64,000 nt of DNA. It comes from Tridacna crocea. Lineage: Eukaryota > Mollusca > Bivalvia > Cardiida > Cardiidae. A program made the translations under genes and the position numbers. Each line of letters starts with the position of its first letter. Position 1 is the first letter of the stretch. Below are positions 6,635 through 58,768 of the stretch, piece after piece. The notes under the pieces were generated by a model. That model made no database searches. It saw only the letters and a list, made by a program, of their open reading frames with translations, and was not told where the DNA came from. The DNA is taken from NCBI GenBank assembly GCA_943736015.1, contig OX031063.1, forward strand, positions 2,585,001 through 2,649,000, in the 5' to 3' direction.

Positions 6635-6864
6635 TTAACCCATTCCCAAACAACAAAATTTAAGACTGGCCCAAAGTCAAAGCAGTTGCAGATGACAAAA
6701 TAAACGCTAGTCAAAAATTAAAATTTGTTTCCAGTAGGGTAGAAAACACTGTGGGAAAAGGAGAAAATGCTGGTTACCAGCATTTTCTCCTTTTCCCACA
6801 GTGTTTTCAAAAGGCTTCTTTTTCAGGGTCGTCAAAACCAGGGATTGTTTGGTAAAGGGTTAAG
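6635..6864 (-). mobile_element. MITE-P, full length
   Basis: TTAACCCATTCCCAAACAAC to TGGTAAAGGGTTAA. Core at about 6744-6810 with arms reading CACTGTGGG and CCCACAGTG, so both arms carry the same departure from the common CATTGTGGG/CCCACAATG. Confidence 0.9.
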
Positions 6865-7084
6865 TTTATTATCCTCTGAAACAAATTTTGTGAGGGGGTG
6901 TGAGACGGGATTTTGAAAAAGTCCTAATAAAAAAATATGTAAGATGGACTGAGGTTCAGTGCTTTTATATAAAAATAGAAATTGTGATAAAAGGAAAAAA
7001 AAAGCCTCTTCTTTTTTATCAAAAATTTCTTTTTTTTTTTCCACATCATATTCAAATGTCGTCTGCCACTCCACAAAAAGTCTC

Positions 7085-7305
7085 ACGGTTGGACAGACGA
7101 GTAAACGCTTTTCCAGCAGACAAAATTTTAGACCTTTTTAGACCTTTAATATCTAATCTAAATGTAGATGACAAAATTTATTATGGCTGTATGATAGGAT
7201 TTGTCTAGGTAGAGGTAGTAAAAAACCTGTGGGAAAAAAAGAGAATGGGTTTTCTCCAGTATTTTCATCTTTTCCTACAATGTTTTCGAAACCCATCTTA
7301 CTTAA
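7085..7305 (-). mobile_element. MITE-P, diverged
   Basis: Degraded copy with TGTAGATGACAAAATTTATT, a loosened core (CCTGTGGGAAAAAAAGAGAA with TTTTCCTACAATGTTTTCGA), then the TTAA of the next element at 7302. Confidence 0.6.
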
Positions 7306-7508
7306 CCCTTAACCAGAGCAATGAAAGCATTTTCAGACGACAATTTTATTGTAGTTTAAATGGTGTAATTTTTCCTTGATAGGGTAGAAAACACTTTGGA
7401 AAAAGGAGAAAATGCTGGTTACCAGCATTTTCTCCTTTTCCCACAGTGTTTTCAAAAGGCGTCGTTTCTAGGGGCGTTAAAAGTCTTCATTGTATGGTAA
7501 GGGGTTAA
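7302..7508 (-). mobile_element. MITE-P, near full length
   Basis: TTAACCCTTAACCAGAGCAA to TGGTAAGGGGTTAA. Lacks about 25 bp of the left half, joining AACCAG directly to AGCAATGAAAGCATTTTC. Core around CTGGTTACCAG. Confidence 0.8.
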
Positions 7509-7944
7509 GAATCGTTAAAATCTGAAATTATTTGGTAAAGGATTTTAAAATGGGAGCTAAGTGTCTACCATATTTATGTACGTATTTTCCATAATTTCTC
7601 AGCCGTGAAACGCATATATATTTTTTTTGCAAAGAACTGAGTAGGTAAACTTTTGAATTTGAATTTAAATTTTCTGAGGTGTCTGTGCGAAATACACCCA
7701 TTACCTTGCCAGTGTGAAATTTAAAATTCGATATCAGAAGACAAATTTAAGTTTTTAAAAATATTTGAGGGAAAGAAGCTATTGCGCTGAAAAAAAAACC
7801 TGGACCTTGTTGAGTTTGAGGGATTGTTTTCTATACCATTCAGAAGGACGTTTTGACTTTCCTTTAAACTTGTCTCCAACTCTTTACTTGCAGTTACTCC
7901 TTATACGACTACCTGTGAGAAGGTTTTTATTATATTTGGTTAGA

Positions 7945-8176
7945 TTAACCCTTTACCAAACAATCTCTGGTTCTTACGACCCTTAGGACTATGCCTATTG
8001 AAAACATTGTGGGAAAAGGAGAAAATGCTGATAACCAGCATTTTCTCCTTTTCCCACAATGTTTTCAAGACTATATCTGATTCAGATCCAATCATTTGTG
8101 CCATAAAAATTTTGTCGTCTGCAAATACTTTCAATTTGGAACAGTCCAATTTTTTTTTCGTTTGGTAAAGAGTTAA
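7945..8176 (+). mobile_element. MITE-P, full length
   Basis: TTAACCCTTTACCAAACAAT to TTTGGTAAAGAGTTAA. Core at about 8000-8067 around CTGATAACCAG; arms otherwise pair fully. Confidence 0.85.
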
Positions 8177-8383
8177 AAGGAAAACACTTATCATTCGTCT
8201 GTATGGGTTTCTATGGATGCTAAAGATTCCGAGCGAATTACTAGATTTTAACCGCAAAAGGCCTAATAAGAAAAATAGGTATTTTAATTCCAAAACTTTT
8301 TCGTTAGCAATAAATCCTACAAAAAAATCGGACAATGTACGTTAACAACCGTAATATGGGGTCTATCCATCCTGCCGTGCGTG

Positions 8384-8424
<41 letters not shown>

Positions 8425-8440
8425 CTCTCTCTCTCTCTCA
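8384..8440 (+). repeat. (CT)n microsatellite
   Basis: About 28 CT dinucleotides with one CG interruption. Frames through it give Ser-Leu or Arg-Glu runs and are not genes. Confidence 0.95.
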
Positions 8441-8746
8441 GTGATACTCGTATATCACCAGTTAGGGCGCTGGAAAAAATGTGTTCGATCATCGTGGACG
8501 ACGATAATCCAAAAATCAGCGTGTCCTTAAGCAAGGCACTGCATAGTTGCAGCATAGTTCAGTTGTAACAATGAAAATACAGAGATACAGAGATAAGTGA
8601 GCTGTCGCAGCAGTATGACTCAAACAATGACAGAAGAGACGTAGAATTCAATAAAGCTTGTAACCTGTAGAATAAGTAAAACGAAACTTTCCAGCCAACA
8701 TTAGAATCGCAGATTTTGCTGTATCAAATATATTATCCTTATCGGA

Positions 8747-8816
8747 TAGTGTAGATCCAAGATAGGAAGCACGTTTTGTGCAGTCTGATCTTGATCTAAA
8801 CTGTCCGCCAAAGGTC
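8747..8816 (-). mobile_element. MITE-T core copy
   Basis: ATCGGATAGTGTAGATCC, then AGGAAGCACGTTTTGTGCAG and TCTGATCTTGATCTAAACTG, ending TCCGCCAAAGGTC. Moderately decayed. Confidence 0.7.
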
Positions 8817-8839
8817 TGAGAGTCGCAGTGAACACCATA

Positions 8840-9600
8840 ACAGACAATAGAGCAAATCAAGGGCTCTCACGAGATCGCCACAACTCACCCCCATCATCTT
8901 TGTCCAAAATCTGACCTCTTGGCATGAGGTATGAACACAAAGGGCCAATTCAGTATTTATCGGTTTCTAACATTTTCAACAAATATTGACAGACTGGGAC
9001 AACTTAAGCTAAGTAAACACAGTACATATGTAATATTTGAAATACTAAAATCACACCCTTGTCTTGGGCAATGATGTCCTACCCTCTGAAGAAATAATGT
9101 CTTCTCATAGCATAGAAAAAGCAGTTTATATTTTGATCTTAAATGATGAAGCAATCGGTATCAATAACTTGCTTTTTTTTGTTTAATTGAAATAATCTGT
9201 GAGGGCTGACTTTAGATAAGTTGGAAAACTATCATTATACGACATGATGGGAAAATATTAGTATGGGAAAGAGTATACTTTTGTTGCTTTGCTTTGGAAA
9301 CATTTATGGAAAAGGAGAAATCGATTGTTGGTAGCAAGCGTTAAATGTTTTGTAAATGTGGTGAATTCCAATAGGTATACCATCTCCTTTATCTGCATGT
9401 ATATCTTTAAATTGATATATTGTATTCAGTACCAATAAATCGACACATGTTTGCTAAGGGTCAGACTGAAGATGTGTGGGAGGTAAAATGGCGGGGGTAT
9501 TCCGAATGTTTAATCAAAGCTGTGAAGGTACTGAAAACACCTTGGTATTAGTCACCATGAATATTTACATACAAACAAATACTCGCAGCTGATGTTCTAA
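8840..9600. other. no recognisable feature
   Basis: AT-rich DNA. Only a weak MITE-P-like AAACATTTATGGAAAAGGAG near 9297. No exon seen. Confidence 0.45.
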
Positions 9601-10049
9601 ATTCTAATTCGTCTGTCCTCTTTCACAGCTCTTCTGTCCTCTTTCACATATTACAACCCTTTGTCACACAAGACAATGGTAAATTTTGAAAGGGACCGGC
9701 AGACTGACAGACTGACTGAAGCGGAATATCTATTTCCTCTGTTATTTTACTCCGGAAAATATATTATTAAAAAATCATCTCTATTGAAGCATCTTAACCG
9801 AGCCACTTTTGGAGGTTTTACCTTCACACAATTATCATTTTCTATTCTAAAATCACTATATCCTCTATGGAAAGGGATATCATTATTACCTCCCTTTACA
9901 AAAAAAAAGTAATAGATGTATGAATAGAATTTTTTTAGAGAAAAGAAAAGAAATTCTGGGCAGTTAAACGTGTTTAGAGTTATTGAACCTCTATAAATTC
10001 TCTATATTCTTACACTAGAAAGAAGTTATGCCATGTTGACCATGGCTAG

Positions 10050-10205
10050 TATTCACCAACCATTCTTAAGAACGTTCTTGGTCTCAGTCTCCAGAATTTT
10101 CTAAATTTGAAAGTAACGCAGCATCTGATTGGCTAAACCAAATGGTTTAGCCAATCAGATGTTGTGTTACTTTCAAATTTAGAAAATCATGGAGAGTAAG
10201 ACCAA
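10050..10205 (+). mobile_element. MITE-V
   Basis: Long palindrome: TATTCACCAACCATTCTTAA, TCTGATTGGCTAAACCAAAT, then GGTTTAGCCAATCAGATG and ACTTTCAAATTTAGAAAATC. The right terminus is lost after AAGACCAAAG. Related to copies near 33170 and 57312. Confidence 0.75.
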
Positions 10206-10254
10206 AGCTTCAGGGGAGGAAAGCCTAAAGTAACAAGCTGGACTAAACAAGCTG

Positions 10255-10318
10255 AAAGTATAGATGCAAGATCAGATTGCACGGTCTTTGTAGTCCGATT
10301 TTGAACTATGCCGTAAAC
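10255..10318 (-). mobile_element. MITE-T core fragment
   Basis: AGTATAGATGCAAGATCAGA and TTGCACGGTCTTTGTAGTCC, then GATTTTGAACTATGCCG. A decayed hairpin. Confidence 0.55.
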
Positions 10319-10329
10319 AAAAGCCCATG

Positions 10330-11090
10330 TTTTTGTCAATAGCGCTCGAAGGGTTGAAGGCCTAAAAGGAAGTTTTAAACATGCATTAAAAAATGAATGA
10401 AAATGCAATTAACCTATTTGACCTAATTATTGCTACAGTCTTTGTTTTACATGTCCTTACATAAAAGTGGGGTGAAGTAATAATTTACCGCAAAGCGATC
10501 TATCAGTACAGTTTCTGATTGTCGCAATTGTAATTGTCGTCTTTGTTCGTGATTAGAATTTTGATCAGAACATTCCCTCATACAACATTAGATGTCGATT
10601 ATGTCGATTTTATTTTGTGGATTGATAAATTTTGCAAATATGAGTCTGAATTTGAATTTTTTTCGTAAAGTTGTGCTTGAAATTGCAAAAGAAGGACGCG
10701 ATATATTTACTTCCATGGTGTCTGTTGCCATGGTATTGTGTATGGGGCAGCCCGAAGGAAACGACTGAAGCGAAAACTGATGAAATATAACCCAAAAAGC
10801 GTCACTGATACAGTGATCAAGTGTATGTAAATGTCATAAAACAGTGTTCCGCCGATTCATCATACACTGGTGTTATTGCACAAGCACGCATCATTAAGAA
10901 TAAATTTATATGTGGACCAGCAAGATATTTGCTAATTTCATTGTCGTAAAGCAGTGTTATTGGGCGACGGTAGACGAATTGATTATGCGACATCGTTTAT
11001 GCCTTTCTTCAATTTCTTTAATTTATTTTTCCGTAGCTTTAGCTCTCTGCAAAGCAACCAAATGCTTGAATCGCCCATATTGAAACTGGC
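10330..11090. other. no recognisable feature
   Basis: Single-copy-looking AT-rich DNA. A short frame on the minus strand at 10610-10795 has no recognisable similarity. Confidence 0.45.
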
Positions 11091-11091
11091 T

Positions 11092-11334
11092 TGCAACACG
11101 TTAAAGGGGTACTAGGACATTTGCATAGAATGTCGTCTCGTATCAGCCGGTGCGGACTCCAAGATGGCACGTTACGACTACATTAGATTTGGTGCTACAG
11201 TAGACTTGCGCAAAACACAAAATTACATAAAAAACGGAAACAGTCGTCTAGGATTAGCCTGCGGGGACTGCGCAGGCTGATCCGAGACGACATTTTACGC
11301 ATATGTCCGTATGCCCCTTTTGGCACGTTTCAAG
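11092..11334 (+). mobile_element. MITE-S, full length, left core decayed
   Basis: Ends match GCAACACG...AAAGGGG and CCCCTTTT...GTTTCAAGCC. The left core (TCTCGTATCAGCCGGTGCGG) no longer pairs well, while the right core (GGATTAGCCTGCGGGGACTG with CGCAGGCTGATCCGAGACGA) is retained. The spacer between cores carries TACAGTAGACTTGCGCAAAA. Confidence 0.75.
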
Positions 11335-11531
11335 CCATTAACAGTGAAGATGACAACTTTATTTGCTATTTGTATTTGGATACAGAAGTTCAGTGTAAAG
11401 AATTGTTGTTGAACAACTTCTTGTTTTGAATCTGGACACCATCAAAATTTCTCATTGGCCTTTGGGACATGAGAAAAGATACACAAAATTCCTTGGGCAA
11501 TTGGATCTAAATGGGGCCTGACAAGTGACCA

Positions 11532-11600
11532 GGGAGATAATATCTCGCGAACTGGGAGATTTGATCTCGTGAACAGCGAGATTTGATCTCGCGGGGCGAT
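11532..11600. repeat. hairpin-forming tandem repeat, about 23 bp x3
   Basis: Three successive units, each with GAGAT-(3-4)-ATCTC: GGGAGATAATATCTCGCGAA, GGGAGATTTGATCTCGTGAA, GCGAGATTTGATCTCGCGG. Each can fold alone. Confidence 0.8.
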
Positions 11601-11782
11601 CTTAATGAACCAATTATCTACTCGTTGTCCTGCGATCAGGTTAAAACGTGACAAGCAATTTTCAAAACAAAACAGCCGGCCAAATGGACATCAACTGTAT
11701 CTTTGATGGCCGCCGGTCAGTTTGGGGATCACCTGTCGAGAACGGTGTATTGTGTCCGGCTGTACTATGCTCCTGTCCAAGC

Positions 11783-12002
11783 TACCCCTTTACCGACAAA
11801 CCCATTTTAAACTTGACAAATTCGAAACCTGTCCCAGACAAAAAAAATATGCCGAATTGTGACCCAATCATAGGAGCTTGCTAATGGAAGGATAGAAAAC
11901 AGTGTGGGAAAAGGAGAAAATGCTGGTTACCAGCATTTTCTCCTTTTCCAACAATGTTTTCAAAAGGCTTCTTCTTAACTCGGGATTGTATTGTAAAGTG
12001 TT
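11783..12002 (-). mobile_element. MITE-P, diverged left half
   Basis: Left end CCCCTTTACCGACAAACCCA and TTTTAAACTTGACAAATTCG is diverged. The core at about 11896-11963 around CTGGTTACCAG is intact, and the right end is TGTATTGTAAAGTGTTAG. Confidence 0.75.
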
Positions 12003-12235
12003 AGCTCATGTCAGAATAATGACCTAGTGGTACTTTGATGCTGAGGGCGACCATAAATCATAGTCAATGTTGGATTTGTTCAATATGTCCATCTTGTATA
12101 CAAACGTTGTCCTGATCTTTTTATTGCTTAAAGAATGACACATCAGTTTTTTGTTTCATTCATTATTTTCTCGCCCTCATTTCATCATTTGCGGTAGTTA
12201 AGAAACCTGCTATTAACGTCAAGGTATTTTACTAG

Positions 12236-12445
12236 TAATATTTTGTATACCCCTACAACGTAGTGTAGGGTGGTATACTGGAATTACCATGGCTGTCTGT
12301 ACGTCTGTCCGTCCGTCTGTCCGTAGGCACAAATTTGTCCGGTGCAATACTCCCATAGTTTTATAACGTACTATATGTGAAGTTGTGCTTGTGCAATTTT
12401 CATGAGCCTGCTGCAATTTGTTACGGAGTTATCTTCCCTTGAACT
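12236..12445 (+). mobile_element. dispersed repeat with TCTGTCCGTC run
   Basis: GTATACCCCTACAACGTAGT, GTAGGGTGGTATACTGGAAT and the run GTCTGTCCGTCCGTCTGTCC, followed by GCACAAATTTGTCCGGTGCA. I recognise this layout as a common molluscan dispersed repeat fragment; family name unknown to me. Confidence 0.55.
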
Positions 12446-12905
12446 TTTTTCAACATTACTTTTATACTGAACTTTTCTGCATTCTGTGACAAAGACCTGT
12501 TTGTGTGACAGAGAGCTGGTGGGGGGTATAATCACGTTCAGTGATAGCTTTAGTTTTGTTTGCTGTGCCACAATGACTGTAAAAGTAGCACCAGTAAGCT
12601 AGCGGAATGATACAAGACGACGCGGAAACGTTTTCTTCATGACAGTTGTAACTTGTGGCTTCACCACACCAACTTTGAATTTATAAAGCTTCTAAATGAA
12701 ACGGCCCTTCAACCAAAGTTACTTCACAATCACAAAATCTACTGGATCATTTCAATGATATTTATAATCAGACTGCATTTTCTATGCTCTTGGTTTGGGG
12801 TAAACACAAAATATTACCAACAGAAAGAATTATTTTTCTCTGAGGCAGTATTTGGCAACCATATGGCTTTTTGTTTACATTGAGTCCGGCTCAATCTGGA
12901 TACTT

Positions 12906-12926
12906 ATAGACTAGCTTCGCTAGTCT
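12906..12926. repeat. short perfect hairpin
   Basis: AGACTAGC-TTC-GCTAGTCT at about 12908-12926 makes an 8 bp stem with 3 nt loop. It sits just before a lone tandem-repeat fragment (AAATGTATTGCCGAAACTTC). Confidence 0.6.
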
Positions 12927-13171
12927 AAAAAGGTGAAATGTATTGCCGAAACTTCTTAGAAAAATGATGGAGAACACTTCTTAGAAAAAACTTTTTTTGC
13001 GAGAACAGAGTATTTGTTTTACAGTTGGAAAAGATGTAGATGAAGCAAAGGATTAAATCGGCTTTTACCTCAAACAGTGCGTAACCAAAAAATAGATTTA
13101 GATTTTAGAAATTACAAAAAAAAGTCGCTGCAAAGATTCATCGAGATAAATCTGTCTTTGCATACATTATC

Positions 13172-13401
13172 TTAACTTTTTGTACATGACTACAAAATTT
13201 TAGACTTGTCCAAATTGAATGCTTTTGCAGACGACAAATAAAATTAGTGGCTATTTTTTTTTCTTTTTATTGTATGAAAGAAAATATTGTAGGTAAAGGA
13301 GAAAATGCTGGTTACCAGCAGTTTCTCCTTTATCCACAGTATTTTCAAGAGCCTTTTTTATCTAGGTAATTTTAATACGGGATTATTTGGTTAAGGGTTA
13401 T
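13172..13401 (-). mobile_element. MITE-P, full length
   Basis: TTAACTTTTTGTACATGACT to TTATTTGGTTAAGGGTTA. The core around CTGGTTACCAG has left arm ATATTGTAGGTAAAGGAGAA and right arm GTTTCTCCTTTATCCACAGT, with a few mismatches. Confidence 0.8.
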
Positions 13402-13646
13402 ATCTTTACCTCTTTGAACAAAATTGTATCAGACAAATTTGAAAGTACATTGTATCAATCTTAATGATGAATGATAACAAGAATGGACGATGAAAAGATG
13501 TACATAACATGTATATGTTGCAAATTCATTGTGGCAAAAGCACAAATTGCATCGGAAACAAGGCAAGTTATTCTTTTTCAGCAATGTTTTTTTTTTAGTA
13601 TCATGTTGCAAACATGACAATGTTAATGTAGCAAGTTAGGAGATTG

Positions 13647-14305
13647 CAAAATGTATTGCTAAAACTTTTCGTTTTAGATGATTGATGCAGAAAGCTGATA
13701 CGGACGTTTGGTGTACATTAGCAGTTACCTCACATCCGCATTAAACCTGCAGTTTAATACACATAGATGTCTACTATTTCTATTTTAGTAAAGCCTTAAA
13801 GCGCCGGGATTAAAAGGTTGAAATGTATTGCCGAAACTTTTCGTTATAGGTGTTTGATGCAGATAACAGATACTGGCGTTAGGTGTCAATTTGCAGTTGC
13901 CTCACATCTGCATTAAACGTGCAGTTTAATACACCTTGATGTACACTGTTTCTATTTAACTAAAGCCTTAAAGCACCGAAAAAGAGACACGAAATGTATT
14001 GTCGAAACTTTTCATGGCAGATGCTTGATGCAGAAAGCACACACTGGCGTTAGGTGTACATTAGCAGTTACCCCACATCTGCATTAAACGTGCAGTTTTA
14101 CATATCTCGTTGTATACTGTTTCTCTTTAATTAAAGCCTTAAAGCACCGAAAAAGAAATACGAAGTGTTACGTATTGCCGAAAACTTTTTGTTGCAGGAG
14201 ATTGATGCCAAAAGGTGACACTGGCGTTAGGTGTACATTAGCAGTTGCCTCACATTGGCGTTGAACGTGCAGTTTTATACACCCCGATGTATACCCTAGT
14301 GTTGG
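13647..14305 (+). repeat. tandem repeat, about 172 bp unit, 4 copies
   Basis: Unit starts are marked by ATGTATTGCCGAAACTTTTC-like sequence at about 13651, 13823, 13994 and 14170, spacing 171-176 bp. Each unit contains TTGATGCAG, GGTGTACATTAGCAGTTACC, CATCTGCATTAAACGTGCAG and, in the first three, TAAAGCCTTAAAGC. The last unit is cut short near 14300. A partial unit also lies at about 12933. Confidence 0.9.
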
Positions 14306-14320
14306 GTTTAAGTCTTAAAC

Positions 14321-14550
14321 TTAACTCGTTACAAAACGACAATATTGTAGACTCTTCCTAATTGAAAGCTTCTGCAGACTACTTATTGGAAAGCCATTCA
14401 AATGAACCATAGCTCTTTAACAGGGTATAAAACATTGTGGTAAATGGAGAAAATGCTGGTAACCAGCATTTTCTCCTTTTTCCACGATGTTTTCAAAAGG
14501 CTTACTCTTTCAAGCTCGTTCAAACTCGGGATTGTGTGGTAAAAAGATAA
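14321..14550 (-). mobile_element. MITE-P, full length
   Basis: TTAACTCGTTACAAAACGAC to GTGTGGTAAAAAGATAA. Reverse orientation, but the core centre reads CTGGTAACCAG, the form usual in forward copies. Confidence 0.85.
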
Positions 14551-14659
14551 AACGCCGAATAAGTCCATCACACACGTTCATTCTAGAAATAGAATTGTAA
14601 AAACCATTCTAGAAATGAAAAAAAAAATCGTAAAACGTGCAATTTTAAAGTTTTTTTTT

Positions 14660-14721
14660 TTTCTTTTCCCACGATGTTGTCGACAGCTTCCTCCCTGACG
14701 ATGGTAAAATCACGGGTTAGT
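14660..14721 (-). mobile_element. MITE-P end fragment
   Basis: TTTTCCCACGATGTTGTCGA, CTTCCTCCCTGACGATGGTA, AAATCACGGGTTA. Right core arm plus outer end only. Confidence 0.6.
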
Positions 14722-14978
14722 CTCTAATGGGGGTTTGCAGACACCTATGGTATCACAGAGGCCGAGGGCAACCATAGTATTCTGAAGCGTTAGACTAAGA
14801 CAAAAATATTAATTGGACATTAATAGAGATGAGTAATTTAGTCAAAAATGGTGTCAAGGCAAAAATTATCTAAAGGGTATCAGAAGAAATGACTCTTCAA
14901 CTGAGAAACGGTCCAAAAACAGACTTGAAAGGAAAGAGTTCGGGCTGTACGACCATATGCTTTTCTGGTGAAAAATGG

Positions 14979-15215
14979 TCAACCCATTACCACACAATCC
15001 CTACTTATGACGCCCCTGAGAAAGAAGCCTTTTGAAAACACTGTGGGAAAAGGAGAAAATGCTGGTAACCAGCATTTTCTCCTTTTCCCACAGTGTTTTC
15101 TACCCTATATATACAAAACAAATTTCAATTTTTCAGTCACTTTTATTTTGTCGTAGACCTGCAAATGATTTCAATTTGGACCAGTCTAAAATTTTCTTGT
15201 GTGGTAAGGAGTTAA
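14979..15215 (+). mobile_element. MITE-P, full length
   Basis: TCAACCCATTACCACACAAT to TGTGGTAAGGAGTTAA. Core at about 15035-15102 with both arms in the CACTGTGGG/CCCACAGTG version, centre CTGGTAACCAG; essentially perfect pairing. Confidence 0.9.
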
Positions 15216-15379
15216 ATACGAGTACAAACGTAAAGGGAAAAGAGTTTCGCTTTTACGACCGTATGCGAGGATACAGACCTTTCAAAAGTCAATTTAACAA
15301 GTTGATTATATTTATAGCATAGAATTCACTTCGACCAATCCTGTGACATTCCAATGTAAGCGATGCGGAGGTCGACAAC

Positions 15380-15592
15380 GATTTACCCTATAGAAAATAA
15401 TCCCTGCGAAATAAGGACTTTGTAAACATTGTGAGAAAAGGAGAAAATGCTGTTAACCAGCATTTTCTCCTTCTTCCATATATGTTTACTTTCCCTGCAC
15501 ATGTAGCTCCCATCTGTTTTAGCTGTGTCTATTTTGTCGTCTGAACTCCTTTGAATTTGGTCTAAATTTTGTCGTCTGGTCAAGTGTAAAAT
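15380..15592 (+). mobile_element. MITE-P, diverged
   Basis: TTACCCTATAGAAAATAATC, core around CTGTTAACCAG with arms AACATTGTGAGAAAAGGAGA and TCCTTCTTCCATATATGTTT, then TTGTCGTCTGGTCAAGTGTA. Confidence 0.7.
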
Positions 15593-15714
15593 CATTACCT
15601 TCCGCAGACGACAGAATAGTTGGTCTGGCAGCAGACAACACTGATGTAATTAGAAGAAATCTCTTTAAAGTCTCTCAAATTTCCTCGGAATTATGGAGTT
15701 TTGGGGGGCCTTTT

Positions 15715-15805
15715 GGGGGGGTTACGTAATTTGAAATTTGAATTCACTTTGCGTTTTTTTTGACGTTTTTCTGTTACGTAATGTGAAATTTGAATTCACC
15801 AAAAT
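15715..15805. repeat. interrupted direct repeat
   Basis: GTTACGTAATTTGAAATTTG followed 53 bp later by GTTACGTAATGTGAAATTTG, each continuing AATTCAC. Origin unknown. Confidence 0.6.
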
Positions 15806-16119
15806 TTGCAGTTATCATTGTGTTTCAACTTACAGTGGATTTTTTTCTACCTAAAAAATAGGATAAGGAAAAAGAGAGTTGATTCAGTCTTTTGGAATGT
15901 CCCATGTCAAAACAGAAATAAAAAGATATTAATATTAAAATTGCAACCTGTGTATACATCTTTTTTTTCTCTCAAATAAAATAAGCACTTGAAATACACA
16001 CAAAATGTGATATCTATGTTACTGTATGCATCGACCATAAAATTGACACTTAAGGTACGGTTGAAACATGTTAGATAATGTTCGACCCTTAACGCATTGC
16101 GACGTACTTTAGATCCTTT

Positions 16120-26070: not shown

Positions 26071-26115
26071 GCATGAAGGATTAAAATGAAATTTAGAGTG
26101 GTTTGTAAGTGCGAC

Positions 26116-26312
26116 TTAACCCTTGACCAAAGAATCCTTGGTTTTAATGACACCCAAGAAAAAGGCCTTTTGAAAACACTGTGGGAAAATGAGAAAATGT
26201 TTTGGACTCTTCCCACCCCAAGTGTTAATTTTTGGATCAGGTTTACTTTTTTTGTTTGCAAATTCTTTCAATTTGGACCAGTCTAAAATTATGTTGTTTG
26301 GTAAAGAGTTAA
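26116..26312 (+). mobile_element. MITE-P with deleted right core arm
   Basis: TTAACCCTTGACCAAAGAAT to TTTGGTAAAGAGTTAA. Only the left core arm (AAAACACTGTGGGAAAATGA) remains; after AAAATG the sequence moves to TTTTGGACTCTTCCCACCCC. The hairpin is gone although both termini are intact. Confidence 0.8.
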
Positions 26313-30404: not shown

Positions 30405-30652
30405 TGTGAAAAGGGGGCTTATTGCATCAGCGAAAAGTATCGACCCAGGCCAGCCTGCGCAGTTTGCACAGGCTGGCCTGGGTCGATACTTTTCGCTATC
30501 GGTCAATTTTCTGCATGTCCAAGGTTCAGTTTACCCCATGATTAAGTAGGTTGTTTTTAAAAGAGGATATGATTGATCGATAATTCTATGATGGCTTGCT
30601 TGGTGCCATGGATCACAGATGTATTAAGCCCCCCTTTTGACAGATCATAGCT
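30405..30652 (+). mobile_element. MITE-Q, full length
   Basis: TIRs TGTGAAAAGGGGGCTTATTG and ATGTATTAAGCCCCCCTTTT. The core at about 30437-30497 pairs CGACCCAGGCCAGCC with GGCTGGCCTGGGTCG, GGCC on both arms where others have GGTC/GACC. The right half has CAATTTTCTGCATGTCCAAG and ATGATGGCTTGCTTGGTGCC. Non-coding. Type copy. Confidence 0.9.
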
Positions 30653-30708
30653 CTCTTACATTTAGAACCTTATTACAGGGATGAAAGGCAGTTTTGATCA
30701 GCAAATAG

Positions 30709-30972
30709 GTGAATGAATGAATGAATGAATGAATGTGAATGAATGAATGAATGAATGAATGAATGAATGAATGAATGAATGAGTGTGTATGTGAGTGAAT
30801 GAATGAATAAATGAATGAATGAATGAATGAGTGTGTATGTGAATAAATGAATGAATGAATGAATGAATGAATGAAATGAAATGAAATAGAATGAATAAAT
30901 GAATGAAATGAAATAGAATGAATGAATGAATGAATGAATGAATGAATGAATGAATGTATGAATGAATGTTTA
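30709..30972. repeat. (GAAT)n tetranucleotide array
   Basis: Long run of GAATGAATGAAT with scattered variants (GAGTGTGTATGTGA twice, GAAATGAAATAGAATG twice), about 260 bp. A minus-strand frame through it reads His-Ser-Phe-Ile repeats and is not a gene. Confidence 0.95.
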
Positions 30973-31281
30973 CAGTATAAAGTTCGATTAAAGAACAATA
31001 TCACTGGACACAATAGCTTTGTGACGGAATGGCGAATCGCTAAGTTTTATTGCAGGACCGACCACACTTTAGTGCCACTTAAAAGGAATGTTTTTCGATA
31101 GAAAACCAGGTTATTTGGGGATTAAACGCGCTCTCATTGCAAAATCATTGTAGACATTGCATTGTTTGACACAAAGAAAATCTTGAATGAATCACTTCTT
31201 GACGCAGTTTGAAAGAACACGTTTTCAAAAGGGTTTGTGAAGACGAATTACCTTTGTCTGTTGCTCTCTGCAGACTTCAGT

Positions 31282-33500: not shown

Positions 33501-33750
33501 GCTTGCCACATGCGAAAAGGGGCATTCGGATATTGACGTAAAGTGCCGTCTCGGATCAGCCTGCGCAGTCCGCGCAGGCTGATCCGAGACGACACTTTAC
33601 GGCTACACTAGATTTTGTAGACTTGAGCAAAGCAGAAAGTGACATAAAAACAGAAAATGTCGTTTCGGATCAGCCTTCGCAGACTGCGCAGGCTGATCCG
33701 AGACGGCACTTTACGCAAATGTGCTTGTATCCCTTTTCGCGTGTTGCAGG
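33501..33750 (+). mobile_element. MITE-S, full length, two intact cores
   Basis: GCTTGCCACATGCGAAAAGG to CTTTTCGCGTGTTGCAGG. First core AGTGCCGTCTCGGATCAGCC with its complement to 33599; second core GTCGTTTCGGATCAGCCTTC with its complement to 33714. Spacer TAGACTTGAGCAAAGCAGAA. The best two-core copy here. Confidence 0.9.
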
Positions 33751-35517: not shown

Positions 35518-36002
35518 TGGGTTGTGAAAAGGAGACTAACGCGTCTGCAAAAAGTATCGACCCAGATCAGCCTGCGCAGACTACGCGGTCTGATCCAAGT
35601 CGAAACTTTTTGCTTTTGTTCAATTTTCTGTATGTCAAAGGACCATTTTACTTCATGATATAGTTCGTTGTTTGAAAAAATGGATTTTATGAAAGAACAA
35701 GTATGTGATGACTTGTTTGGTGTCATGGATCACGGAGATACATTAACCCATTGCCACACAATCCCTACTTTTGACGCCCCTGAGAGAGAAGCCTTTTGAA
35801 AACACTGTGGGAAAAGGAGAAAATGCTGGTAACCAGCATTTTCTCCTTTTCCCACAGTGTTTTCTACCCTTCCAGAACTAATTCTAATTTTTCAGTCACC
35901 TTTATTTAGTCGTTTGCAAATGCTTTCAATTTGGACCAGTCTAAAATTTTCTCGTGTGGTAAAGAGTTAAGCCCCCTTTTTCCGGAGCATGGCTTTTTCA
36001 AA
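35518..36002 (+). mobile_element. MITE-Q, split by a MITE-P
   Basis: TTGTGAAAAGGAGACTAACG, core AGTATCGACCCAGATCAGCC with partly matching right arm, CAATTTTCTGTATGTCAAAG, GGTGTCATGGATCACGGAGA, TACATTAA | MITE-P | TTAAGCCCCCTTTTTCCGGA. The Q sequence resumes exactly after the duplicated TTAA. Confidence 0.88.
35743..35970 (+). mobile_element. MITE-P, full length, nested in MITE-Q
   Basis: TTAACCCATTGCCACACAAT to GTGTGGTAAAGAGTTAA. Core at about 35799-35865 in the CACTGTGGG/CCCACAGTG version. Inserted in the right TIR of Q at its TTAA. Confidence 0.92.
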
Positions 36003-38919: not shown

Positions 38920-39410
38920 GCTCTGTGAGAAGGTGGGTTAACTCATTACCAAACGACAATATTTTAGACTGGTCCAAATTGAAAGCATTTACAGACGACA
39001 AAATAAAAGTGACTGAAAATTTGAAATTTGTTTTGTGAAGGGTAGAAAACATTGTGGGAAAAGGAGAAAATGCTGGTTACCAGCATTTTCTCCTTTTCCC
39101 ACAATGTTTTCTGAAGGCTTCTTTCTCAGGGGCTTCAAAAGTAGGGATTGTGTGGTAATGGGTTAATGAATCTACAAAAAGTATCGAGTCATGTAAGCCT
39201 GGAAGTCCGCGCGGGCTTACATTAGTCGATACGTTTTGCTAATAGTAATTTTCTATGCATGTTCTAGAACGTTTCTAGCTAAAGATTCAGGCAGTTGGTT
39301 CTCAGACTAAATAGATTTAGTTAGGAGCCCTAACTATATGATGGCTTGCTCTTGGTGTAATGTATCTCGGAGATGTATTAAACCTCGTTTTGTGAGAGCA
39401 TGGCGACTTT
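38920..39410 (+). mobile_element. MITE-Q, split by a MITE-P
   Basis: Left end GCTCTGTGAGAAGGTGGG then TTAA | MITE-P | TTAATGAATCTACAAAAAGT, core ATCGAGTCATGTAAGCC with GGCTTACATTAGTCGAT, and right end GAGATGTATTAAACCTCGTT. The core is shortened and asymmetric. Confidence 0.8.
38938..39166 (-). mobile_element. MITE-P, full length, nested in MITE-Q
   Basis: TTAACTCATTACCAAACGAC to TGTGGTAATGGGTTAA. Perfect-looking core at about 39047-39113 around CTGGTTACCAG. Inserted in the left TIR of Q at GGCTTAATG. Confidence 0.92.
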
Positions 39411-43570: not shown

Positions 43571-43802
43571 TTAACCCTTTCCCAAACGACAAATTTTCGA
43601 CTCTTCCAAACTCAAAGAGTTTGCAGACGACAATTTCAAATTTAATAAAAATGGCAGAAAGTTCTCCAAATGGGTAGGTAGAAAACACTGTGGGAAAAGG
43701 AGAAATTGCTTGTTATGAGCAATTTCTCCTTTTCCCACAATGTTTTCAAAAGGCTACCGTTCAAGTCCCGTAAAAACAAGGGATTGTTTGGGAAGGGGTT
43801 AA
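43571..43802 (-). mobile_element. MITE-P with altered hairpin apex
   Basis: TTAACCCTTTCCCAAACGAC to TTTGGGAAGGGGTTAA. The apex reads AAATTGCTTGTTATGAGCAA with the TTT complement instead of AAATGCTGGTTACCAGCATT; both arms changed together. A similar apex is seen at 58697-58768. Confidence 0.88.
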
Positions 43803-44021
43803 GAGAACATTTTGATACACAGATACATCGAAGTACTCTTTCGAAGGGGTCTAGATTTTTCAGATCAGAATTGCTTGATTTGAGTTACTTGGATGCATTT
43901 GTGCATAAATTTGTCACCACATCAAACATAATCTAAACTATTTTATAATTAAAACTTTTTCAAAAAGTTAAGCCAACCTTTTTTCAGTGGTCGTGGTTTG
44001 TAAATAGTTTTTGATATAAAT

Positions 44022-47591: not shown

Positions 47592-48045
47592 TCTTGTTCT
47601 GTAAAAAGAAGGCTCAATGCATCTGCAAAAAGTATCGACCCAGGTCAGCCTGCGCAGTCCGCGCAGGCTGATCTGGGTCGAAACTTTTTGCTATTGGTAA
47701 ATTTCCTGCGCGTCAAAGGACCAGTCTACTTCATGACTTAGTCGGTTGTTAGACGGAATTAGTTTTGCTGAGCCTATATTATGTTTATCGTGGAGATGCA
47801 TTAACTCTTTACCACACAATCCCTACTTTTAACTACCCTGAGAAAGAAGCCTATAGAAAACATTGAGGGAAAAGGAGAAAATGCTGGTAACCAGCATTTT
47901 CTCCTTTTCCCACAATGTTTTCTACCCTATCGAAGTTAGAAATCACCATACAGATATAAGTTGTCTCTAGATGTATTGATTTTGACCCAATCCAAAATTT
48001 TGTGATTTGATGAAGAGATGAGCCCCCTTTTGCGAGATTAAAGCT
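47592..48045 (+). mobile_element. MITE-Q, split by a MITE-P
   Basis: GTAAAAAGAAGGCTCAATGC, core AGTATCGACCCAGGTCAGCC with CAGGCTGATCTGGGTCGAAA, GTCAAAGGACCAGTCTACTT, CGTGGAGATGCATTAA | MITE-P | ATGAGCCCCCTTTTGCGAGA. Same insertion site in Q as at 35743. Confidence 0.88.
47801..48021 (+). mobile_element. MITE-P, full length, nested in MITE-Q
   Basis: TTAACTCTTTACCACACAAT to TTTGATGAAGAGATGA. Core at about 47856-47923 around CTGGTAACCAG. The right TTAA has decayed to ATGA. Confidence 0.85.
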
Positions 48046-52975: not shown

Positions 52976-53209
52976 CAGAATTTTTCCCAAACGACAAAAT
53001 GTTCGACTAGATTATATTGAAAATATTTGCAGACGACAAATTAAAAGTATCTGGATTTATGAAATTTGCCTCTGAAAGGATAGAAAACCTTGTGGGAAAA
53101 GGAGAAAATGCTGGTTACCAGCATTTTCTCCTTTTCTCACAAGGTTTTCAGAAGCTTTCCTTCCCAGGGGATCGTGAAAACCACGGCTTGTTTGGTAAAA
53201 ACGAGTTAA
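52976..53209 (-). mobile_element. MITE-P, near full length
   Basis: TTTTTCCCAAACGACAAAAT to TTTGGTAAAAACGAGTTAA. Core at about 53082-53149 pairs AACCTTGTGGG with CTCACAAGGTT: a two-sided change from ACATTGTG/CACAATGT. Confidence 0.85.
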
Positions 53210-53635
53210 ATTGCAGCGCACTTCAAATTGGACCACAGTGTCGAGATATCATTGCATAAAGGTTTGATTGACAGATTTGGACTAATTTTCAATCCATTTC
53301 TAAAGCGACAAGACGTTCGCACAAAGGTGCTTACAAATTGCTTTCCTAAACTTGCAGTTCTTGTCGGTAATTTGCTGTCCTTTGACCCCTCTCTCAAGGA
53401 ATTTACATTTTTTTCCTCTCGCTCGCCCAAGTCGAAATGATAGCCCGGTGAACCCAGTGCAGTCACTGGCATGCTCGATATCTGGTCTTATTTCCAATCT
53501 TAAGACTTAAAGTGACAAGAAAGGCCAAATGTAAACAAAACATTTGTTTAAATGCATTTGAATTTATATTATATAATGTAAAAGTATGGAAATAATTGTG
53601 AAGATAGTTCTTGATCACTTTACTTATCGTACACT
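53210..53635. other. no recognisable feature
   Basis: Overlapping short frames on both strands; none recognisable. Possibly a relic repeat, not assigned. Confidence 0.35.
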
Positions 53636-53638
53636 GAG

Positions 53639-53867
53639 TTAACTCTTTTCCACACGAGAAAATTTTAGACTGGTCCAAATTGAAAGCATTTGCAGACGAC
53701 AAAATAAAAGTGACTAAAAAATTGAAATTTGTTCTGGGAAGGGTAGAAAACACTGTGGGAAAAGGAGAAAATGCTGGTTGCCAGCATTTTCTCCTTTTCC
53801 CATAGTGTTTTCAAAAGGCTTCTTTCTCAGGGGCGTCAAAAGTAGGGATTGTGTGGTAATGGGTTAA
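53639..53867 (-). mobile_element. MITE-P, full length
   Basis: TTAACTCTTTTCCACACGAG to TGTGGTAATGGGTTAA. Core arms CACTGTGGG and CCCATAGTG, centre CTGGTTGCCAG. Confidence 0.88.
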
Positions 53868-54214
53868 GGTCTGTAAATAGTTTTGTATTAAAGTCATGAT
53901 AACAGTATTACGTAATCATGGAGAAATGATATTCCGATAGTTTCCGATTTCTAGCCGATAAGGTGATTTTCCTTATAATTCCGCCCTTATGAAAAGGCGA
54001 CATACCGTAAAAGATTTAAAAAATAAGTTCTAATCAGGTTTAGGAGCTGTAAGCGGCTTAGACGTCATATATACGGTAAAGTATTTTGTTATTGAAACCC
54101 AGTCTAGCCAAGCCTGTATTTTTGTAACTAATCTTTTGATTGGATGACGGGTTCTCTCTCTCTGCTAATCAGATTGCTCGTCTTGTCTACCAATACGGGC
54201 TGCCTTTTGAGACT

Positions 54215-55625: not shown

Positions 55626-55916
55626 TCTCGTACCTTGTCTGATATCCAGTTTTTATTTTGGTGCGAAAGCTATTTTGAAATTGAAACGTGTGATCCTTTT
55701 GTCGAAAAAACGCGTTTCGGACATTCGTTGCCTTGATAGTTTTTTTGAAGCCTGGGCTTCAGATCCCCTCCCCACACATGGCTACACGCACCTGCCCTCC
55801 TTGACTATCCAAAGACTTACAAGGATTCTTCTCAACTAATGTTCCTAAATCCGGCCCGATCTATGACACCCAATTGCAAACGTATAACTTAAAAAAAGAT
55901 ATCTGAGGCTTGCCGA

Positions 55917-55955
55917 GGATGGATGGATGGACGGACGGACGGACGGACGGATGGA
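55917..55955. repeat. (GGAT)n/(GGAC)n tetranucleotide run
   Basis: GGATGGATGGATGGACGGAC continuing as GGACGGACGGACGGATGG. Probably a relic of the TCTGTCCGTC-type repeat seen at 12236. Confidence 0.85.
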
Positions 55956-56157
55956 AGGTATAAAACTTTCTTGAAATCTGCCATGTTCACCCCACGCCAT
56001 GACAATATAGAATTTTAATATTTGACTAAGAAAGCCATGCAAATATTGAGAAAAAAAATGAAGAAATTTAAAATAATGATTGGAGAAAAGCTAACAGTTG
56101 CGAAAAGAAAAGATAGTTGGACAGTAACCTCTTTGTACTGTTTAATCGTTTACATAT

Positions 56158-56397
56158 TTAACCTTTTTCCAAAAGGGCAAATATTAGACTCTTCCCAATT
56201 GAAAGTATTTGCACACGGCAAATGTAAAAGTGGTAAAGATGCATTAAAATTTTTTGACATGGCAGAAAACATTGTGGGAAAAGAAGAAAATGCTGGTTAC
56301 CAGCATTTTCTTCTTTTCCCACAATGTTTTCAACAGGCTTCCATCCAAGGTTCGTTAAAAACTCGGGGTGAATTAGATCTACGTGGTACAAAGTTAA
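56158..56397 (-). mobile_element. MITE-P, full length
   Basis: TTAACCTTTTTCCAAAAGGG to GTGGTACAAAGTTAA. Core at about 56267-56335 pairs AAAAGAAGAAAATG with CATTTTCTTCTTTT, a two-sided change from AAAAGGAG/CTCCTTTT. Confidence 0.85.
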
Positions 56398-56534
56398 GTT
56401 TTCAAACCCTGGTTTGATCAAAGTAATTAAAACGGCTTGCATTGAACTGCGAAATTCTTTATTTCTGTCGAAAGTCGTAAGTCAGTCTGGGGCATGGTGA
56501 CTTCTGCCGCGTTAGGGTGACATAGCAAACTGTC

Positions 56535-56636
56535 TAACCCTTTCGGCGGTACAGGCGAAAATGAGGCCTTTTGCGGACTGTATATAGATCCAAGATCAGA
56601 CTGCACAGAACGTGCCGTCTGACCCTGAATTTAGTT
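56535..56636 (+). mobile_element. MITE-T, cut by MITE-P
   Basis: CTAACCCTTTCGGCGGTACA, GAGGCCTTTTGCGGACTGTA, CCAAGATCAGACTGCACAGA and GTGCCGTCTGACCCTGAATT; the right half is missing where MITE-P starts. Confidence 0.7.
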
Positions 56637-56864
56637 TAACCCATTACCTCACAATCCCTACTTTCGACGACCCTGAGAAAGAAGCCTGTAGAAAACATTG
56701 TGGGAAAAGGAGAAAATGCTGGTGACCAGCATTTTCTCCTTTTTCCACAATGTTTTGTACCCTTCACAAAACAAATTTCAAATTTTCAGTCACTTTTATT
56801 TTGTCGTCTGGAAATGCTTTCGATTTGGACAAGCCTAAAATATTGTAGTTTGGTAATGAGTTAA
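56636..56864 (+). mobile_element. MITE-P, full length
   Basis: TTAACCCATTACCTCACAAT to TTTGGTAATGAGTTAA. Core at about 56692-56758, centre CTGGTGACCAG. Its right TTAA adjoins the 3' tail of a reverse SINE-B. Confidence 0.88.
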
Positions 56865-56865
56865 A

Positions 56866-57072
56866 CATATTTATTTATCATCGATTGAGAAACAAGTTCT
56901 TACAAGTTATACTAATCTCTCTCGATTCTGCTTCCTGGGACCTACACCAGTACTTGCGCCGAATGTGTGGGCCAATGAAAAATCCCAAAAGTTGACATCC
57001 GCTCCCGGGGATCGAACTCAGGACCTTTTGGTTCCGAGGCCGACGCTCTACCTCACGACCACGGACACGACT
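56866..57072 (-). mobile_element. SINE-B, complete-looking
   Basis: TTATCATCGATTGAGAAACA, ATCTCTCTCGATTCTGCTTC, GTACTTGCGCCGAATGTGTG, box B complement GGGGATCGAACTCAGGAC, box A side GACGCTCTACCTCACGACCA. Full tRNA-like head present. Confidence 0.85.
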
Positions 57073-57117
57073 GACCTTGAATTAATGTCGTCCGCCTGTT
57101 TAGTCAAAACTATTACC

Positions 57118-57605
57118 CGAGCCCCGGAAGCTCAGTCGGTAGCGCGCAAGAATTGAGAACAGGGCGTCGTGGGTTTGATCCCTGGCTCGGCCAATGATAG
57201 TCATTCCCTCTCCCACTCCTGACTATTGTCTCGACGATGGCAATGAGGGAAAGCAGCCAGTGGCTTGGAAAAGAAATACTGTTGAGTACTGATAAAAGAG
57301 ACTCAAGGGTTCGTTTTCATCAACCATTCTTAAGAACATTCTTAGTCTTATTTTTCAGAATTTTGTCAGTGTGACAGTACCAGAACGTCTGATTGGCTAA
57401 ACCATTCGGTTTAGCCAATCAGAAGTTCTGTTACTTCTACAGTTAGAAAATCTTGAAGAGTAAGTCCAAGAATGTTTTCAAGAATGGTTGGTGAATACGG
57501 ACCCCGGGTCATGGATAGGTGCACTGGCCGCCGCGTTGTAACTAATTACATGTATGATGAAAAATGGCGTTGACCAATATACCAATAATCAATCATTCAA
57601 ACCCA
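57118..57605 (+). mobile_element. SINE-A, split by a MITE-V
   Basis: Complete tRNA-like head GCCCCGGAAGCTCAGTCGGT, TAGCGCGCAAGAATTGAGAA, box B GTGGGTTTGATCCCTGG, CTCGGCC. The body runs to AAAAGAGACTCAAGG, is interrupted by MITE-V, and resumes at CATGGATAGGTGCACTGGCC, ending in AATCAATCATTCAA. The best-preserved SINE-A head in the window. Confidence 0.85.
57312..57499 (+). mobile_element. MITE-V, nested in SINE-A
   Basis: TTTTCATCAACCATTCTTAA and GAATGGTTGGTGAATACGGA form the ends. The centre CTGATTGGCTAAACCATTCG pairs with GTTTAGCCAATCAG. Near-complete long palindrome. Confidence 0.82.
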
Positions 57606-57667
57606 TAATCAAGGTTTGCAGTCATGTAGTCTTTAGTCCGAACTCTTCTTTGCCTTAGCCCTAGTAG

Positions 57668-57752
57668 TGATTGATTGGTTGTATGGTGTTCAAAAGAAAC
57701 TCCAGGAACGCATGGATAGGTGCACTGGCCGCCGCGATATAACTGAGATGCA
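57668..57752. mobile_element. chimeric SINE-A fragment
   Basis: TGATTGATTGGTTGTATGGT, a reverse tail, runs straight into AAAGAAACTCCAGGAACGCA and TGGATAGGTGCACTGGCC, forward body, ending CGCGATATAACTGAG. The two parts point in opposite directions. Confidence 0.75.
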
Positions 57753-57782
57753 TCTAACCCCCTTTTGTCAGAGTATGACTGA
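57753..57782 (+). mobile_element. MITE-Q right-end fragment
   Basis: ATGCATCTAACCCCCTTTTG and TCAGAGTATGACTG match the Q right TIR. Confidence 0.6.
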
Positions 57783-57834
57783 TATCTTTCTTGCAACTCG
57801 AAAGCAAATATCTCGCGTTTGCTACTCAACCTGT

Positions 57835-58064
57835 TTAACTCATTACCAAAAGATAATATTTTAGACTTGTCCAAATCGAAAGCATTTGCAAACGACAAAA
57901 TAAAAGTGACTGGAAATTTGAAATTTGTTTTGGAAAGAACAGGAAACATTGCGGGAAAAGGAGAAAATGCTGGTTACCAGCATTTTCTCCTTATTCCCAC
58001 AATATTTTCTTAAGGCTTCTTTCTTATAGCCGTCAAAAGTAGGGAGTGTGTTGTAATGGGTTAA
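57835..58064 (-). mobile_element. MITE-P, full length, first of tandem pair
   Basis: TTAACTCATTACCAAAAGAT to GTGTTGTAATGGGTTAA. Core arms CATTGCGGG and CCCACAATA, centre CTGGTTACCAG. Shares the TTAA at 58061-58064 with the next copy. Confidence 0.88.
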
Positions 58065-58292
58065 CTCTTTACCAAACTACAAAATTTTAGACTTGTCCAA
58101 GTTCAAAATATTTACAGACGAAAAAATAAACATGACTCAAAAATTGAAATTTGATTTCAGCAGGGTATAGAAAACATTGTGGGAAAAGGAGAAAATGCTG
58201 GTTACCAGCAGTTTCTCCTTTTCCCGCAATGTTTTCAGGAGGCTTCTTTCCCAGGGTCATTTAAAAGTCGGGATTTTGTGACAAAGGGTTAA
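58061..58292 (-). mobile_element. MITE-P, full length, second of tandem pair
   Basis: TTAACTCTTTACCAAACTAC to TTGTGACAAAGGGTTAA. Core at about 58169-58236 with right arm CAGTTTCTCCTTTTCCCGCA. Same orientation as its neighbour. Confidence 0.88.
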
Positions 58293-58323
58293 ATAAGAAC
58301 GAATCTTCTCTGGTCGTGGGAAG

Positions 58324-58350
58324 TGGGGGAGGGGAGGGGGAGGGAGGGAC
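58324..58350 (+). other. G-rich tract, potential G-quadruplex
   Basis: Five G-runs of 3 to 5 separated by single A residues (GGGGGAGGGGAGGGGGAGGG and a further GGG). It meets the usual G3+ x4 short-loop pattern on the plus strand. Confidence 0.75.
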
Positions 58351-58359
58351 AGATGGATA

Positions 58360-58690
58360 AAGAGGCGATGACGGTTGCTGATCTTATCGGAAGTATTTTA
58401 TGACCAAATCATCCCAAATAAAACCCTTCTCACTTTTACAATTGACAAGGACTTTATGAACGACAAGAAAAGTACAAAATGAAAAGTTGGAAGTGTGGAA
58501 AAGAAGTCTTTATTGTGCTATGAAAAGAGCTATTGATGAAGCTTTGATGCATTAGAACTAACAAGCTACAAGACTTAGAGGTGATTAATAAGTTTTCTTC
58601 TTAGTAGAAAAAAAAAAACATCCTGGTCCAGAGGTTAAGCTTGACTCTGTACTCTTTGCAGTCTTGGCTTCAGTGAAATATCACTACTTT
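58360..58690. other. no recognisable feature
   Basis: AT-rich DNA, nothing assigned. Confidence 0.45.
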
Positions 58691-58696
58691 TATGTT

Positions 58697-58768
58697 TCAA
58701 AACATTGTGACGAAAGGTGAAATTGCTCATTATGAGCAATTTCACCTTTTGTCACATTGTTTTCTTGC
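58697..58768. mobile_element. MITE-P-like core with divergent arms
   Basis: AAAACATTGTGACGAAAGGT, GAAATTGCTCATTATGAGCA, ATTTCACCTTTTGTCACATT, GTTTTC. Nearly perfect pairing although GACGAAAGGTG/CACCTTTTGTC replaces GGGAAAAGGAG/CTCCTTTTCCC. Confidence 0.75.

Follow-up and report, generated by a model that had tools for sequence, protein, structure and literature searches.

The two arms of a palindrome that lies in the middle of MITE-P, a miniature inverted-repeat transposable element (MITE) of the bivalve Tridacna crocea, were found to change together, in such a way that pairing of the arms is kept. The element was analyzed in a window of 64,000 nucleotides (GCA_943736015.1, contig OX031063.1, positions 2,585,001 to 2,649,000; coordinates below refer to this window), and copies from further parts of the genome were included. 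In the explanation that is preferred here, with a probability of roughly 0.6, the covariation results from compensated changes in source lineages that were under selection on the palindromic core, followed by amplification of these sources and decay of their copies, and a residue of paired changes is left unexplained.

MITE-P has a length of 229 bp, is bounded by TTAA, and contains a central palindromic core of 67 bp, i.e., two 33-bp arms around one unpaired base (T). Of 224 near-complete copies, 145 have TTAA close to both ends and 19 at neither end, and the distance from TTAA to TTAA was uniform in the 145 copies (median 221 bp, 5-95% range 211-225). The terminal inverted repeats have the ends C[TC]C.TTACCA and CCC.TTACCA. 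Short and uniform size, a large number of copies, a target site duplication and terminal inverted repeats are the hallmarks of a MITE, and with 229 bp MITE-P is too short for a transposase gene. It is probably mobilized by a piggyBac-type transposase: it has the TTAA target site of the piggyBac superfamily. At the place of the piggyBac end motif CC[C/T]T, the right end has C in 91%, C in 86%, C in 92%, and T in 63%; at the left end, the second base is T in 52%. TTAA is also the target of Kolobok elements. The inner 35 bases of the core occur in 166,719 exact copies genome-wide (1.05 Gb, 31 contigs), which leads by rough extrapolation to about 650,000 cores. The window and its surroundings (264 kb) contained 65 exact 35-base cores, where the mean of the genome predicts 42, and 252 cores that could still be recognised, and the core motif CATTGTGGG had 24 matches in the window compared to 0.47 expected. 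The calculated single-stranded DNA fold of one whole copy (6635-6866) was -56.9 kcal/mol, compared to -23.2 +/- 3.3 for shuffled sequences.

A profile search for MITE-P resulted in 505 matches in 361 kb, of which 499 remained after locus L001, which is inside the window, had been dropped. From these, 267 near-full copies with at least 195 aligned columns and at least 63 of the 67 core columns were kept. The sample is not random, as it consists of 30 loci picked by similarity to one copy plus the neighbourhood of the window. The arms of these copies diverged from the consensus by 6-7%, the flanks (as a whole, ends included) by 20-22%. Complementary changes in both arms were observed 152 times, compared to 33.2 expected from the column marginals. 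In a wrong-partner control, in which a left position was combined with a wrong right position of the same base, 25.9 +/- 7.1 were obtained, with a maximum of 56 in 2000 draws. Non-complementary double changes were near chance (31 versus 24.5 expected). Covariation of the arms, which the original prediction had deduced from the window, was thus directly observed. The excess was smaller when partial copies were included and founder variants excluded (93 versus 55.5 +/- 6.4 in 284 copies), and paired variants that were present in one copy alone were near chance (14 versus 10.5 +/- 2.5). Among close copies, 66 disjoint pairs had 14 two-arm differences (5.05 expected), six of which were complementary.

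The window contains 48 MITE-P copies in which 25 or more stem pairs are covered, and the following exemplify the variation:

6635..6866, + strand: full MITE-P copy of family A, pair 26 C-G, TTAA at both ends, core at 6742-6808
6742..6808, + strand: palindromic core of 67 bp, 33/33 pairs, centre T
13172..13404, + strand: MITE-P copy with paired changes at pairs 19 and 28, which occur together in 1 of 267 copies
14976..15215, - strand: MITE-P copy, pair 26 C-G, 33/33 pairs
26113..26312, - strand: MITE-P copy minus left arm and apex (deletion), ends intact
35740..35970, - strand: MITE-P copy, pair 26 C-G, 33/33 pairs
38938..39169, + strand: MITE-P copy with no paired change, 33/33 pairs
43571..43805, + strand: MITE-P copy with the family B type apex AATTGCT/AGCAATT (pair 8 changed), 30/33 pairs
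52976..53212, + strand: MITE-P copy, pair 27 changed from A-T to C-G (ACCTTGTG/CACAAGGT), 32/33 pairs
53639..53870, + strand: MITE-P copy, pair 26 C-G, 31/33 pairs
56158..56390, + strand: MITE-P copy, pair 14 changed from G-C to A-T (AAAAGAAG/CTTCTTTT), 33/33 pairs
58695..58770, no strand assigned: family C type core, pairs 2, 3, 8, 13, 20, and 21 changed, 30/33 pairs, flanks without half-profile assignment

The variant arms that had been reported for single copies were recovered. The copies at 6744, 15035, and 35799 share altered arms, pair 26 being changed from T-A to C-G with 33/33 pairs in each of them, and the variants at 53082 and 56267 are the changes at pairs 27 and 14 listed above. 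Also the altered apex of the copies at 43683 and 58697 was confirmed, with pair 8 changed and 30/33 pairs in both. The additional arms GACGAAAGGTG/CACCTTTTGTC that had been described for 58697 are present, but their pairing is one mismatch below perfect.

Alignment of the cores with an AATTGCT apex yielded two families in addition to family A, i.e., family B (18 copies, among which there is an additional left half) and family C (15 copies). The lengths of left part, core, and right part of the consensus are 107-67-55 bp for A, 106-67-55 bp for B, and 107-67-55 bp for C, and each majority-consensus core is a perfect palindrome at the same position. The core differences between the families were, as directly seen in the alignments, paired throughout: A and B differ at three pairs (26, 8, and 3), A and C at four pairs (20, 13, 8, and 3) plus the centre, and B and C at three pairs (26, 20, and 13) plus the centre. 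That all four A-C differences are paired has a chance probability of about 3e-7 at equal base frequencies. Between A and B, the flanks match at 85-86% over 64 bp (left) and 34 bp (right); the flanks of A and C could be aligned only over the 12-19 bp termini and short matches, one of which (10 bp) adjoins the core. As side observations, each of the four stem differences between A and C exchanges the two bases of a pair (G-C to C-G or A-T to T-A) and so preserves pair strength, which is a small sample, and this swap pattern is absent in MITE-Q. At L035:117 and L032:5703, an additional left half that has family-C-like ends is joined to a B-type core, which suggests that more families may share the MITE-P core. 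Recombination through the core, which would yield elements with two left or two right halves, was considered and rejected: among 387 cores, 232 had a left and a right half, none had two left halves, two had weakly assigned right halves on both sides, one half was unassigned in 54 and 52 cases, and both were unassigned in 47.

No paired change was present in 179 of the 267 copies. The most frequent paired haplotypes were C-G at pair 26 alone (24 copies), C-G at pair 3 with T-A at pair 8 and C-G at pair 26 (10 copies), A-T at pair 14 alone (seven copies), and C-G at pair 3 with T-A at pairs 8 and 13 and C-G at pair 20 (seven copies). The variants T-A at pair 8, C-G at pair 3, T-A at pair 13, and C-G at pair 20 showed tight linkage to numerous positions of the flanks (best P 2.8e-19), and C-G at pair 26 was moderately linked; A-T at pairs 14, 15, and 20 had no clear linkage to the flanks. 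Judged from the sequences, many paired variants would be marks of source lineages.

Next, the changes were placed on a tree of the flank columns. Complementary doubles fell 50 times on single branches (42 terminal, eight internal), compared to 14.2 +/- 3.3 in the wrong-partner control. Because the full flank tree favours flank changes on inner branches, four replicate trees were built from half of the flank columns, and the remaining half served as a rate control. The ratio of arm changes to held-out flank changes was 0.46-0.48 for terminal branches, 0.15-0.19 for those with two to three tips, and 0.11-0.18 for those with at least four tips. Fewer arm changes on shared branches were thus observed directly, with the caution that also the terminal arm change was only half the flank rate. 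Paired doubles numbered 6-9 on branches with at least four tips, compared to 0-0.3 with wrong partners, and 35-47 on terminal branches, compared to 12-17. In replicate 0, paired changes made up 9 of 21 events on branches with at least four tips versus 42 of 796 on terminal branches. At pair 26, the right arm changed on a branch with 29 tips (support 0.84), so that this pair was apparently altered via a T-G intermediate. By reasoning, a reduced rate of change is not expected from arm-to-arm conversion alone, and therefore purifying selection on the core in the spreading lineages is the simplest reading.

Among 281 copies that span both outer parts, at least 10 gap columns in the 67-column core were found in 19 and at least 20 in nine, compared to seven and one for a flank stretch of 46 columns in the same copies. 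Of 18 listed copies with at least 12 core gaps, no two share both breakpoints (by eye). These directly observed, differing breakpoints are as expected of dead-end copies. They limit what can be concluded from the copy at 26116, itself one of the core-deleted copies, in which the hairpin is indeed gone and the ends are intact, as had been noted, the left arm and the apex having been removed by a deletion. It had been taken as a sign that the hairpin is dispensable for persistence; it does show that a copy can persist, but has no bearing on mobility. In one of the core-deleted copies, L049:3872, sequence outside the core is missing as well, and most of the core is absent from three additional split matches. 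When family-A copies were divided into thirds by divergence and pair 26 was set apart, the double changes at the other pairs numbered three versus 2.3 in the control in the least diverged third (144 single changes), 11 versus 3.8 in the middle third, and 34 versus 15.0 in the most diverged third. Taken together, the results suggest that the fold is important during the mobile phase of the element and that ordinary decay removes it once a copy has landed.

The proposed sequence of events is as follows. In a mobile lineage, the palindrome would be selected for its sequence as well as for its self-complementarity. When a source lineage altered one base of the stem, the partner base would often be altered too, and after amplification of such compensated sources most paired variants of today would mark the old families A, B, and C; smaller source lineages are probably also marked by paired variants. 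After insertion, a copy would be released from selection, its arms would gain mostly unpaired changes, and the hairpin would be prone to deletion. The selected property may be a use in transposition or amplification, either via a folded DNA strand or via a symmetric protein site, and it is the rates of change that point to a requirement for the hairpin during mobility. A more specific version is put forward tentatively: the central hairpin might be a working part of amplification, e.g., a strand that folds and thereby attracts repair or replication, or a cruciform to which the transposase binds. It could then be a portable module that was kept at fixed distances from the ends while the flanks turned over, and it could be the reason for the several hundred thousand copies.

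Several points weigh against the explanation by compensated source lineages. Terminal doubles exceeded the control about threefold (42 versus 13.7 +/- 3.2), single-arm events outnumbered paired events on branches with at least four tips of the full tree (14 versus 7, two of the 14 being likely a rooting artefact at pair 14), and the tree consists mostly of terminal branches (35.7 of 42.7 length). The filter for at least 63 of 67 core positions favours intact cores, and the family B consensus blends two left halves. In addition, carriers of A-T at pairs 20 and 15, and mostly also those at pair 14, are unclustered on the flank tree, so that a founder origin is no more than possible for them. When the sample was widened to 286 copies, all 11 carriers of A-T at pair 14 were diverged (0.26-0.36), and their nearest carriers were slightly closer than matched copies (fraction 0.05); this was likewise the case for A-T at pair 24 (three copies, fraction 0.07). 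Carriers of A-T at pairs 20, 15, and 22 were no closer than matched copies of the same set. The doubles at pairs 14, 15, and 20 may represent old sources without flank marks, or the paired change may have occurred repeatedly. The original prediction had held that continuing homogenisation of the arms is superfluous if all paired changes trace to a few old founders and single copies have only unpaired changes. Founders indeed explain much, and shared branches are enriched for paired changes, but the terminal doubles show that the changes of single copies are not only unpaired.

The rival explanation that survives best, and which is possible, is a two-fold symmetric protein site in double-stranded DNA, of which both halves fit one protein, so that a hairpin never forms. 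Its signature in the sequence would be identical to that of a hairpin. The strong sequence constraint, with even paired changes being few on shared branches, is in accord with it, and so is the finding that the A-C differences are all swaps that keep the A/T or G/C class. The usual half-site of a protein is shorter than 33 bp, and perfect arms of this length that extend to a single centre base exceed it, which is not decisive. Equally not decisive, a second repeat of the window with another palindrome also covaries (see below).

Rather unlikely, as the main cause, is copying from arm to arm, in which the nascent strand folds back during replication or repair and single changes are turned into pairs at all times, without any selection. 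Such fold-back copying has been documented elsewhere, as described in PMC8794818. It would be in accord with the rise of the paired-change excess with divergence and with the recurrence of doubles at pairs 14, 15, and 20 without clustering. At pair 12, exact 35-base cores genome-wide included 154 paired copies, compared to 26.7 expected by independence from 2,049 left-only and 2,175 right-only changes; in the 267-copy sample this pair had no doubles. When left 14 was combined with right 15 as a wrong-partner control, 184 copies were counted versus 122 predicted (4,665 left-14 and 4,366 right-15 changes), and the ratio of 1.51, from the single control pair that was run, was attributed to old copies that inflate the count. 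Relative to an expectation inflated in this way (about 40), pair 12 is enriched about 3.8-fold, and the excess of about 114 copies equals 2.7% of its single changes, which is the limit that it sets for uniform copying. Pair 14 had 2,029 doubles versus 4,665 left-only changes (882 doubles with a 45-base core), a share unlike that of pair 12. Because the two pairs differ strongly, uniform copying cannot give both, and it accounts for at most a few percent of the arm changes.

The centre of the palindrome gave signs in both directions for this mechanism. T was changed to A in 20 of 242 family-A copies, which is above the other T's of the core (0.5-2.4%), and A exceeded C at this position (20 versus 9); in the flanks, T-to-C equals or exceeds T-to-A. 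However, about 17 such changes are predicted from the T-to-A rates of the flanks (rough arithmetic), and the centre-flipped copies have more inner-arm mismatches (1.95 versus 1.05 per copy). Among 50 non-founder paired changes only one involved adjacent pairs, multi-base tracts were not in evidence, the doubles of the least diverged third given above were close to the control, and reasoning does not predict reduced arm change on shared branches from arm copying. Arm copying therefore looks minor; given that apex flips are above the other core T's, it may make a small contribution. Of the three causes that the original prediction had considered, the spread of source copies is upheld, a need for the hairpin while mobile is supported by inference from the rates, and continuing conversion or replication through the fold has no support as the main cause in view of the single adjacent case, the near-chance number of single-copy variants, and the unlike pairs 12 and 14.

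Selection of a transcribed RNA hairpin, e.g., a small-RNA precursor, is very unlikely. With the + strand assumed, single transitions that keep a G-U pair were more frequent than those that break it (271 versus 183, copy counts), and on shared branches C>T in the right arm exceeded G>A in the left arm (23 versus 5). However, the genome-wide contrast was weak (six-site totals of 25,850 versus 21,877), and pair 2 was present in 8 of 12 variants of the six-site count among the first 100 matches listed. Pair 12 gave 2,175 versus 2,049 (P 0.054), A-T pairs leaned in the opposite direction (27 versus 38), and terminal events were nearly even except for G-C pairs (124 versus 98). Rfam gave no match at the gathering score in the window part 6500-16000 (9.5 kb). 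Founder effects alone, i.e., a few old sources that happened to differ by paired changes without selection or repair of the fold, agree with the linkage of the main paired haplotypes to the flanks, but can hardly be upheld, as every family-level arm difference is paired, the arms are slow on shared branches, and the pair 12 excess is real without a large founder.

A second palindromic repeat of the window, family D10 (AGCCTGCGCAG...CTGCGCAGGCT), also had paired arm changes in 105 usable copies, in a set that mixes families:

3430-3492, 30432-30494, 33538-33600, 47627-47689, and others: family D10 palindromic repeat

Watson-Crick pairing was present at its pair 4 in 91 of 105 copies (51.5 by expectation) and at its pair 9 in 93 of 104 (50.0 by expectation). 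Near-invariant pairs were at expectation, and pair 2 beside the centre was below it (18 versus 45.5). The window also contains long simple repeats, (AATG)n and (CT)n, at 30708-30980 and 8382-8440.

The nearest kind among known elements are the CMITEs of Acropora corals, to which MITE-P is likened by description only. According to PMC2872659, they are short TTAA MITEs with CCC-type ends and tandem arrays, in which about 75 bp of internal sequence show higher conservation than the ends and are common to families with different terminal repeats; the authors of that study propose that the internal region aids transposition. In MITE-P, the core is likewise more conserved than the flanks, and families A and C have it in common along with little of the flanks. 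CMITEs differ in their length of about 100 bp and their estimated number of about 1,600 copies in one species, and a palindrome or paired changes are not part of the description in the sections of PMC2872659 used here. As a separate observation, MITE-P copies that lie end to end seemingly share one TTAA (57835-58067 with 58061-58295, and 1-85 with 77-310), and these abutting copies resemble the tandem arrays of CMITEs. The REPINs of bacteria are likewise small non-autonomous mobile DNAs with a hairpin and two-sided compensatory changes as described in PMC3116915, but they are bacterial and RAYT-linked, while MITE-P has TTAA ends and a palindrome in mid-element. In Drosophila DINE-1, the sequence of a 3' stem-loop varies by species and pairing is kept (PMC2374699); this stem has 7-11 nt, is near the 3' end of an element with a TT insertion preference, and was compared between species, whereas MITE-P was compared within one genome. 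The template-switch maintenance of RNA stems is a mutational route to paired changes, with multi-base changes and loop inversions as footprints, and MITE-P is without evidence of the multi-base kind, the signs of loop inversion pointing both ways as described above; most compensatory cases in that study were isolated and uninformative (PMC8794818). A covarying internal palindrome in TTAA MITEs was not found among the matches listed in the full-text literature, which is a weak statement, as subscription papers are not covered.

The internal sequence of MITEs is usually treated as filler. With MITE-P, a single genome provides hundreds of thousands of naturally mutated copies of an internal palindrome, in effect a mutational scan, and by contrasting shared with private changes, selection in the mobile phase can be told apart from later decay. 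This makes it testable whether an internal hairpin drives the amplification of MITEs.

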